DNA of 35,862 bases, taken from the NCBI RefSeq assembly GCF_017447225.1, contig NZ_JAFSNZ010000114.1, positions 1 to 35,862 on the forward strand, written 5' to 3'. Below, piece after piece: positions 16,078 through 20,027 of the stretch. A program made the translations under genes and the position numbers. The notes under the pieces were generated by a model that had not been told where the DNA came from, did not search any database, and saw only the letters and a program-made list of their open reading frames with translations. The stretch is from Methanobrevibacter sp. (GTDB lineage Archaea > Methanobacteriota > Methanobacteria > Methanobacteriales > Methanobacteriaceae). The first letter of the stretch is position 1. The number at the start of each line of letters is the position of its first letter.

Positions 16078-18270
16078 ATGACTCAAAATGAAAAAACTTT
16101 AAAAGTTGCAGAAGCCCTCTCACAAAGGGAAATTGGTCAAGGTATTGCAAGAGTTGATCCAAACGTAATGGCCGAATTAGGATTAAACGAAAGAGACATT
16201 ATTGAAATTAACGGCGCTAAAAAAACTGCCGCAATCGTGCTTCCTTCACAAACCGACATAGGTCTTGGAGTTATAAGAATTGACGGATTAGTCCGTAAGA
16301 ATTCAGGAGCTACCATCGGCGGTGAAGTAATAATTAAAAAAGCGAAAGCTGTTGAAGCTAAAAAAGTGGTTTTAGCACCTACTGAAGATAACATCCGGGT
16401 ACAGGGAGATGTGCGCGGTTTATTCATGGGTAAAGTAATGATGAAAGGAGATATTATTGGATCTCAAATCAGAGCTCCAAGACCAAATATGGGATTTAAC
16501 AGCATATTTGAAGATTTAATGGACTTTACCCCTGCAATGAAAGAAATAAGATTTGCAGTATTATCCACCCAACCTGGAGGAATCACTGTAGTCGGACAGA
16601 ACACCGAAGTGGAACTCCATGAATCCCCGGTTGACGTAAGCAAACTCGAAGGTGTAACCAATCTCGTAGATGTAAGCTATGAGGATATTGGCGGTCTTAA
16701 AGAAGAAGTTAAAAAAGTAAGAGAAATGATTGAAATTCCTCTTAAAAGACCAGAATTATTCGAAAAATTAGGAATTGCTCCACCTAAAGGAGTATTAATG
16801 CACGGTCCACCAGGAACCGGTAAAACATTACTGGCTAAAGCTGTAGCCAGTGAAAGTGATGCCCACTTCATATTAATCAATGGGCCTGAAATCATGAGCA
16901 AATATGTTGGAGGATCCGAAGAAAACCTAAGAGAATACTTCGAAGAAGCTGAAGCAAACTCCCCATCAATCATATTTATTGATGAGCTAGATGCGATTGC
17001 TCCTAAAAGAGAAGAAACCAATGGTGAAACTGAAAGAAGAACCGTAGCACAATTGTTGACTTTAATGGATGGTCTTAAATCAAGAGGCCAAGTCGTTGTA
17101 ATCGGTGCTACAAACAGACCGGATTCACTTGATCCTGCTCTTAGAAGACCTGGAAGGTTTGACCGTGAAATAGAAATCGGCGTTCCTGATGCTGACGAAA
17201 GACAGGAAGTTCTTGAAATCCACACAAGGAACATGCCGATAGAAGATGACGTTGATTTGAAAAAATTAGCCAGCACAACCCACGGGTTTGTAGGAGCTGA
17301 TTTAGAATCATTATGTAAAGAAGCAGCAATGAGAGTAGTTAGAAGGATATTGCCTGAAATAAAAAGTGATGAAGAAATCCCAGAAGAAGTCCTCAAAAAA
17401 ATCATTGTAACAAAAGATGACTTCAAATCCGCCTTAAAAGAAATTCAACCTTCAGCACTTAGGGAAGTTCTTGTGCAGGTGCCTGATATCAAATGGGATG
17501 ATGTCGGAGGACTTGATGAAGCAAAACAAGAATTAAAAGAAGCTGTTGAATGGCCTTTAAAATATCCTGAAAACTTCCAAAAATTAGGCGTGAAACCTCC
17601 AAAAGGAATCTTGCTCTACGGAATTCCGGGTACCGGTAAAACATTACTTGCAAAAGCAGTGGCAAGTGAAAGTGAAGCAAACTTCATTTCCATCAAAGGA
17701 CCTGAACTACTATCAAAATGGGTAGGTGAATCCGAAAAAGGAGTAAGGGAAGTATTTAGAAAAGCAAAACAAACCGCCCCAACTGTAATCTTTTTCGATG
17801 AAATCGACTCCATTGCAAGTACAAGAAGCGGAAACGATACAGACAGTGGTGTGACAAAAAGAGTTGTTAATCAGCTATTAACCGAAATGGACGGTTTGGA
17901 AGAACTTGAAGATGTAGCAATCATTGCGGCAACAAACAGACCAGACATTATTGATCCTGGTTTAATGAGGCCTGGAAGATTCGACAGACACATTAAAGTC
18001 GACACTCCATCAGAAGAAGCAAGAATTGCAATCTTTGAAGTTCATACTAAAAATATGCCATTAGCTAAAGATGTAAACCTCAAAAAATTAGCTAAAAGTA
18101 CCGACGGATACGTCGGAGCAGATATCGAAGCCGTATGTCGTGAAGCAGCAATGCTCACATTAAGAAACAACATGGAAGCTTCTGAAATTCCAAACAAATA
18201 TTTCAAAGAAGCTATTGAAAAAGTAAAACCTGCGAATAACGCAGAAGAACAGTTAGTCCAATATATGTAA
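16078..18270 (+). CDS. cdc48: Cdc48/p97-type AAA+ ATPase
   Basis: Hexameric unfoldase that feeds substrates to the proteasome and remodels complexes. The 730 residues contain an N-domain (about 1-185, double-psi barrel plus four-stranded barrel), then D1 with Walker A GPPGTGKT and Walker [11 protein letters not shown], and D2 with Walker A GIPGTGKT and Walker [11 protein letters not shown]. Both rings keep the Walker B Glu and RPGRFDR second-region motif. The C-terminus LVQYM resembles, but does not strictly match, the HbYX proteasome-docking tail. ATG 16078 is preferred over 16069 because GGAGATGAT occupies 16065-16073. Ends at a hairpin terminator. Confidence 0.96.
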
Positions 18271-18301: not shown

Positions 18302-18958
18302 TTATTTTCTAGGCAAAATATCATCACTAGGCCTTAAATAATTAGAATAATACTGTGCCTTATACTCGATGAATGAAAATTTCATGCCATTGACACCATA
18401 TTTCGGATTATAGCCAAATATATTAATGTATTCTGATAAATCATCACGTTCACTTTTCAATGCCTTGGTAACTTCATATAATGCCTTTGTATCATCAATT
18501 GCCCTGTGGAAATTAACCTCCTCAATACCATAATGATGAACAGCATCAATTAACTTGTGAGGATAGCCTTTGCGGTCCTTAAAAACAGTGACAGTGTCTA
18601 ACCAGTTAAGATTTGATACGATTTCATCGGCTTCGCCGGGAAAATGCCTTTTTAACAAGTAGTAAATGAATGACAAATCAAAATGAGTATTATGGGCAAT
18701 CATCAATGTGTCCTTGGTTAACCGTTCTTTTAAATCTTGAGCGATAATGTCTTCAGAAACTCCCTCATCGTTAAGCATATCATCAGTGATACCTGTAATT
18801 TGAGTTATTTTAGGTGGAAGAGCTTCGTTGATTTTAATGAATTTATCGTATTCTTCTGTAATTACACCATCTTCCAAAGTAAACATTGCAAGTTCAATAA
18901 TCCTTTCATTTTTACAATCAAGCCCGGTAGTTTCCGTGTCGAAAAATATAATTTTAAT
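18302..18958 (-). CDS. DnaQ-like DEDDh 3'-5' exonuclease with probable AUU start
   Basis: The 218 residues contain ExoI FFDTETTGLD (residues 5-14), ExoII AHNTHFDLSF, and ExoIII with the His and Asp of HRAIDDTKALY, so all DEDDh catalytic residues are present. They are the hallmark of polymerase III epsilon-like nucleases. No ATG, GTG or TTG occurs in frame between the GGAGG ribosome binding site (18970-18966) and the ExoI motif; the first in-frame ATG (18886) would delete ExoI. The codon at ideal spacing is ATT at 18958, giving (M)KIIFFDTETTGLD. Convergent with cdc48. It could act in repair or RNA trimming; the substrate is not determinable. Confidence 0.85.
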   Translation of the reverse strand: MKIIFFDTETTGLDCKNERIIELAMFTLEDGVITEEYDKFIKINEALPPKITQITGITDDMLNDEGVSEDIIAQDLKERLTKDTLMIAHNTHFDLSFIYYLLKRHFPGEADEIVSNLNWLDTVTVFKDRKGYPHKLIDAVHHYGIEEVNFHRAIDDTKALYEVTKALKSERDDLSEYINIFGYNPKYGVNGMKFSFIEYKAQYYSNYLRPSDDILPRK

Positions 18959-19082
18959 TTGAATGCCTCCGAAAAATATTACTAATATTATATTTGGATT
19001 GATATAATTTAAAATGAACTAATTTTTCATCAATGCCAATTTCACATACAATACTATAAAGCCATGAAATATTTTGTATTAA

Positions 19083-19142: not shown

Positions 19143-20027
19143 ATGGTAAAAAGAGGAACAAATGTATTAAAAGAAGGATTCGCCAAAATGACAAAAGGCG
19201 GAGTCATTATGGATGTAGTTAATGCTGAGCAGGCAAGAATCGCAGAAGATGCTGGTGCAGTAGCTGTAATGGCTCTTGAAAAAGTGCCTGCAGACATTCG
19301 TGCAGCAGGAGGAGTAGCCAGAATGGCTGATCCAACAATTGTTGAAGAAGTGGTTGATGCAGTATCCATTCCGGTAATGGCAAAAGCAAGAATAGGCCAC
19401 ATTGCAGAAGCACAGATACTGGAAACACTCGGTGTTGACATGATTGATGAAAGTGAAGTGCTAACACCAGCAGATGAAGAGTATCACATTAACAAGAAAG
19501 AATTCACAATACCATTCGTATGCGGAGCACGTAATCTCGGAGAAGCATTGAGAAGAATTGATGAAGGAGCGGCAATGATACGTACCAAAGGAGAACCAGG
19601 AACAGGAAATATTGTGGAAGCTGTCCGCCATATGAGAATGGTGATGGGCGAAATCAGAACCATCCAAGGACTTGAAGAAGAGGAACTTTGGAAATATGCA
19701 AGAAATATTGAAGCACCGATTGAACTTGTAAAACAAACTGCTGAGCTTGGAAAATTACCTGTTGTAAACTTTGCAGCAGGAGGTATTGCAACACCAGCTG
19801 ACGCTTCATTAATGATGCAATTAGGTTCTGACGGTATTTTTGTAGGATCAGGAATATTCAAATCAAACAATCCCGAAGCCTTTGCAAAAGCAATAGTTGA
19901 AGCAACAGCTAACTATAACAAGCCAGAAGTATTGGCTGAAGTATCAAAAGGACTTGGAGAAGCAATGAAAGGTCTGGAAATGTCAACATTGACGGAAGCA
20001 GACAGGATGCAGGATAGAGGAATCTGA
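19143..20027 (+). CDS. pdxS: Pyridoxal 5'-phosphate synthase, PdxS subunit
   Basis: TIM-barrel lyase that makes PLP from ribose 5-phosphate, glyceraldehyde 3-phosphate and ammonia supplied by PdxT. The 294 residues fit the family. Visible are the active-site Lys in [10 protein letters not shown] (about residue 80), a second key Lys in [10 protein letters not shown], and the phosphate-binding [18 protein letters not shown] lies eight bases before the ATG. First gene of a plus-strand run; pdxT follows after 31 nt. Confidence 0.98.

Follow-up and report, generated by a model that had tools for sequence, protein, structure and literature searches.

An archaeal exonuclease gene predicted to start at AUU behind a strong Shine-Dalgarno sequence, with AUU and AUG exchanged among Methanobrevibacter relatives

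We analysed the start site of an exonuclease gene in a 35,862-nucleotide stretch of DNA from Methanobrevibacter sp. (the window). In this methanogen, an inhabitant of the gut, and in many relatives, comparison of the reading frames indicates that the gene almost certainly begins at AUU and not at AUG. Initiation at AUU, as proposed in an earlier note on this DNA, is supported by a conserved codon, by its spacing from the Shine-Dalgarno (SD) sequence, by stop codons directly upstream in six orthologues, and by AUG or AUA at the equivalent codon in others. We consider it probable, with good confidence, that the ATT at 18958 is a genuine start, that the SD compensates for its weakness, and that it has been swapped with AUG at least 10 times. 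The features around the start are collected in Table 1.

Table 1 Features at and around the predicted AUU start (positions in the window)
Feature	Position	Strand	Remarks
Shine-Dalgarno GGAGG	18966..18970	-	anti-SD pairing, duplex energy -9.5 kcal/mol
Spacer CATTCAA, 7 nt	18959..18965	-	between GGAGG and ATT
Predicted AUU start codon (ATT)	18956..18958	-	sole plausible start; ATT, ATG or ATA at the equivalent codon in 57 orthologues
DEDDh exonuclease CDS (RNase_T, PolC/DnaQ-type)	18302..18958	-	218 codons plus stop
Earliest in-frame canonical start, ATG = codon 25	18884..18886	-	rejected as start
In-frame stop, 20 codons 5' of AUU	19019..19021	-	without canonical start in between
pdxS	19143..20027	+	divergent upstream neighbour
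cdc48-type AAA ATPase	16078..18270	+	convergent downstream neighbour

The minus strand around the start reads ...aatatttttcGGAGGcattcaaATTaaaattatatttttcgacacg... The earlier note had described a GGAGG (18970-18966) at 7-nt spacing from ATT (18958), with no in-frame ATG, GTG or TTG ahead of the catalytic motif, and both observations hold on the minus strand. From the stop at 19021-19019 up to the DTET motif, the frame contains no ATG, GTG or TTG; after this stop it runs FILNYINPNIILVIFFGGIQ|IKIIFFDTETTGLD... Among 355 gene calls in a relative (G004), the SD-to-ATG distance peaks at 7-9 nt, and the exonuclease spacer fits this range. The AUU is the only plausible start at an SD-proper spacing, as would be expected of a gene of the S. 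aureus type, beginning at AUU or AUA behind a strong SD. The N-terminal peptide predicted from it is (M)KIIFFDTETTGLD..., beginning (M)KIIFFDTET. Alternatively, translation could begin at the ATG at 18886 and give a shortened protein; no canonical start precedes this ATG in frame, and many orthologues retain an ATG at codon 25. However, this ATG lies after D7 and E9, in agreement with the earlier note's statement that a start there deletes a catalytic motif, and we rejected it, since the protein would lack motif I (D7, E9). Its SD is also weak (-3.5 kcal/mol), and codons 2-13 are under protein-level constraint, which makes the shortened protein very unlikely.

Judged by its profile matches, the product is a PolC/DnaQ-type DEDDh exonuclease, a predicted DNA/RNA-trimming enzyme. 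The protein matches PF00929 with E=1.2e-30, profile positions 1-163 of 164 being aligned to residues 4-163, and D7 and E9 of motif I (DxE) are present near the N-terminus, as in members of the DEDDh/RNase_T family. It also matches the PolC exonuclease domain 2p1j (E=1.7e-16), and its closest family is that of the PolC/DnaQ-type proofreading domains. Family and motif I are thus shared with PolC/DnaQ-type DEDDh 3'-5' exonucleases (2p1j, 8h18); unlike these, the 218-aa archaeal protein stands alone. The name ExoI (SbcB), which the earlier note had given to the gene, proved wrong: PRK11779 reaches only 29.7 bits vs a cut-off of 260, and the protein has 218 aa vs the 477 residues of that model. The closest non-archaeal relative found is from Lacrimispora (Clostridia; L052), and its 47% identity hints at gene transfer.

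We compared the start codon among orthologues. The gene was found in 54 of the 67 genomes of the genus that were searched and was not found in 13, a family-level search contributed a few more loci from another genus, and 59 loci were compared after duplicate removal. The codon aligned to the window's ATT is ATT in 24 loci, ATG in 24 and ATA in nine (57 ATN loci); the other two of the 59 are a distant paralogue with GTG and a locus with a different N-terminus. The earlier note had suggested such an alignment as a check and had named ATG at the same codon as a sign against its reading. ATG does stand there in 24 loci, yet ATT stands there in 23 loci other than the window's, which argues for exchange and not for a base error. 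On a maximum-likelihood tree built with codon 1 left out, ATG and ATT/ATA have been exchanged at least 10 times, or changed 14 times when ATT and ATA are kept separate, and the window's own clade has ATT throughout (11 members, L001-L011). Relatives keep the strong SD together with a non-canonical start, resembling the conservation of the S. aureus cases, and the swaps lie outside the window's clade.

Two further explanations of the ATT bear on these alignments. One is a base-calling error or a decayed gene, which could be suspected from the 117 contigs of the window's assembly. However, ATT is present in 23 further loci and recurs in independent assemblies, including a genome in a single 2.54-Mb contig (G004), which excludes a sequencing error. 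The orthologues likewise reject a chance origin of the pattern. The frame is unbroken and conserved along its 218 codons, and we give the explanation by error or decay, already refuted by the orthologues, practically no weight. The other is in-frame initiation elsewhere, at the ATT at 18964 or at an upstream non-AUG codon, with 18958 being an ordinary isoleucine codon. The frame is indeed open for 20 codons upstream and includes the ATT at 18964, but this ATT is only 1 nt from GGAGG. In six loci (L002, L003, L004, L005, L020 and L026; for example, GGAGGAATT TAA ATT AAA), a stop codon lies immediately 5' of the codon equivalent to 18958, ruling out every upstream start there, and 24 loci have ATG at that very codon. 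Codons 2-13 are constrained at the protein level while the codons themselves vary (K/R, I/V/K, I, F, F, D, T, E and T are conserved from codon 2, with synonymous changes), whereas the codons before ATT are unconstrained and protein conservation is absent upstream. Initiation elsewhere is therefore quite improbable.

The start at 18958 and its equivalents is not equally constrained in all loci. A stop occupies codon -1 in 6 of the 33 ATT/ATA loci, and stops occur further upstream too. In 17 of the 24 ATT loci and three of the nine ATA loci, the stretch from the preceding stop to the start position holds no canonical codon in frame. An upstream in-frame GTG, TTG or ATG is present in 13 of the 33 ATT/ATA loci, often as a GTG that also resembles part of an SD, and in several ATA loci a GTG lies three codons upstream. 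In these 13 loci, AUU or AUA is thus the likely start but is not forced.

The genes next to the exonuclease were also examined. In all usable orthologues of the control genes pdxS and cdc48, ATG occupies the SD-proper position, and the convergent exonuclease/cdc48 arrangement recurs in many relatives. In many relatives, the exonuclease gene begins 7-14 nt after a DUF2099 gene (e.g. L013:595-1491). Many ATG loci are placed in this way, 7-12 nt past the DUF2099 stop, and reinitiation could substitute for the SD there. In other relatives, a thiC-like gene is the divergent neighbour; the cdc48 neighbour is often retained.

Using predicted anti-SD pairing, we found that the weaker start codons lie behind the stronger SDs. 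The median SD duplex energy is lowest for ATT (-9.3 kcal/mol), followed by ATA (-7.4) and ATG (-3.35) (Mann-Whitney, 3e-7 for ATT vs ATG and 6e-4 for ATA vs ATG, both uncorrected for relatedness). Behind the DUF2099 gene, GGAGG is present in 6 of 6 ATT/ATA genes vs 0 of 18 ATG genes (Fisher p=7e-6). Of eight independent pairs on supported branches, 6.3 agree on average and none oppose (median p 0.031 at -5.6 kcal/mol); this tree-based test is significant with the cut-off set at -5.0 or -5.6 kcal/mol and not at -7 or -9, where informative pairs are few, and genome context covaries partly with the start codon. The presence of a stronger SD beside weak start codons suggests that the start codon matters for output. 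Together, the aligned sequences show the start position, its conservation and the association of start codon with SD strength.

We propose that GGAGG would position the 30S subunit and that the initiator Met-tRNA would accept AUU with a third-position mismatch, the strong SD compensating for the weak codon. In the cell, initiation would then take place at AUU with insertion of methionine. Start codon and SD strength would drift jointly in Methanobrevibacter, AUU/AUA with a strong SD and AUG with a weak one, so that output would be roughly held as the codon changes, with selection on total protein output and not on the codon. A strong SD with AUU may equal the output of a weak SD with AUG.

The earlier note had instead pointed to the initiation-factor-sensitive switch of E. 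coli infC. The AUU would then be a regulatory sensor that is rejected when aIF1 is high, or in another stringent state, tuning the nuclease as IF3 tunes infC. Such a role is consistent with the retention of ATT by all 11 members of the window's clade, with the finding that, in Sulfolobus, aIF1 acts against non-canonical starts (PMC6237735), and with the growth-medium sensitivity that an AUA start gave to S. aureus ccpN (PMC13009471). Across the genus, however, AUU/AUA has been traded with AUG at least 10 times, and the leader shows no unusual RNA structure around the start (z=+0.81). In addition, aIF1 is present in a single copy that starts with ATG. This leaves no feedback loop of the infC kind, and we rejected both loss and duplication of aIF1 as the cause. 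A conserved switch of this kind is so far unsupported, and we regard the sensor as unlikely compared with an AUU start that is offset by its SD.

The genome-wide frequency of such starts was sampled in 400 kb of the relative G004, with 355 mechanical gene calls. ATT is the best start behind a well-placed SD in four genes (~1%), which encode the exonuclease, transcription factor B (TFB), TiaS and a HycI-type protease. In G004, codons at SD-proper spacing show no general excess of ATT (7 ATT among 257 in-frame codons, at or below the off-peak level), indicating that AUU is used rarely and does not serve as a start codon in general.

We followed these genes in other loci. TiaS, the enzyme enabling AUA decoding, begins with ATT in all 22 Methanobrevibacter loci compared (L175-L196), with the SD AGGTGAT, and TAA lies immediately 5' of the ATT in L187 and L190; elsewhere in the order, in other families, it starts at a nearby ATG or GTG. 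For the HycI-type hydrogenase maturation protease, members of the genus swap ATT, TTG, ATG and GTG at a single start position (L205-L227). Two more G004 genes are candidates for a near-cognate start: an amino-acid kinase family gene (L129:17549), with a cluster of ATA, ATC and ATT behind GGGTGTGATC, and a DUF3100 gene (L138:17357), with ATT behind a G-rich SD. Both have upstream GTG/ATG codons as possible alternative starts.

TFB was compared in loci L140, L146-L174, L235-L247 and L264-L283. In most Methanobrevibacter loci, an ACG lies 7-8 nt after a strong SD without an in-frame canonical start, and the G004 gene (L140:3792-4778) has ATT at the equivalent codon. ACG is also found at the equivalent position in nearly all other Methanobacteriaceae genera examined; in L276, no canonical codon occurs until 194 codons downstream, and in L272, L273 and L274 there is none in the N-terminal region. 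The ACG is only a candidate start in the sister families and some other genera, where an in-frame ATG follows it by a few codons. From these alignments, TFB appears to start with ACG across Methanobacteriaceae. The SD and ACG of Methanobrevibacter TFB overlap the 3' end of an upstream open frame (tail ..RRMKPRQKK-stop). A seemingly conserved mini-ORF that overlaps the TFB start, MKPRQKK-stop, was considered as a leader peptide and dropped, because in frame it is simply the end of this open frame upstream of tfb.

It is a tentative and rather doubtful idea that Methanobacteriaceae hold a small conserved set of near-cognate genes (TiaS and the exonuclease with AUU, TFB with ACG) set by aIF1-dependent stringency. 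If true, transcription, AUA decoding and the nuclease would all be retuned at once by a single shift in the fidelity of initiation. Should the findings on TiaS and TFB stand, near-cognate starts would be an old trait of Methanobacteriaceae, and the policing of such starts by aIF1 would be testable in vivo.

Even in well-studied bacteria, AUU/AUA starts number in ones and twos. We found no report of an archaeal AUU start, or of Methanobacteriaceae genes starting with AUU or ACG, in the open-access literature, subscription journals being mostly outside the search. Gene callers restricted to ATG, GTG and TTG would truncate the exonuclease past its catalytic motif. The swaps between AUU, AUA and AUG, with the SD in step, constitute a natural experiment on the trade-off between codon and SD.

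For E. coli, a passage in PMC9410913, citing Binns and Masters 2002, gives AUU starts for infC and pcnB only. These are natural chromosomal AUU starts, as in the exonuclease gene; infC, however, encodes the factor that rejects AUU, providing feedback, whereas the exonuclease gene does not, and autoregulation of the infC type does not extend to it. GUG and UUG starts are known to carry stronger SDs (Belinky et al. 2017, PMC5622118), and the exonuclease likewise combines a weaker start with a stronger SD. The same study found a single AUG-to-AUU switch among 61,358 ancestral AUG starts, while the exonuclease family shows at least 10 changes between AUG and AUU/AUA, which is unusual for a gene family against that background.

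The nearest parallel of the exonuclease start is found in S. aureus, where the extended-SD starts of cvfC1 (AUU), ccpN and citZ (AUA) have been demonstrated by ribosome profiling and reporters; these AUU/AUA starts lower yield and are conserved among staphylococci (PMC13009471). Common to both is an AUU or AUA start that is picked by a strong SD and kept in related species. The S. aureus genes are bacterial and depend on IF3-based initiation, whereas the exonuclease gene, with its start predicted from sequence, belongs to the archaeal aIF1/aIF2 system. Unlike in the S. aureus cases, its start codon is swapped with AUG inside one genus. The exonuclease start would thus work as the S. aureus starts do, in a different domain and with the exchange visible.
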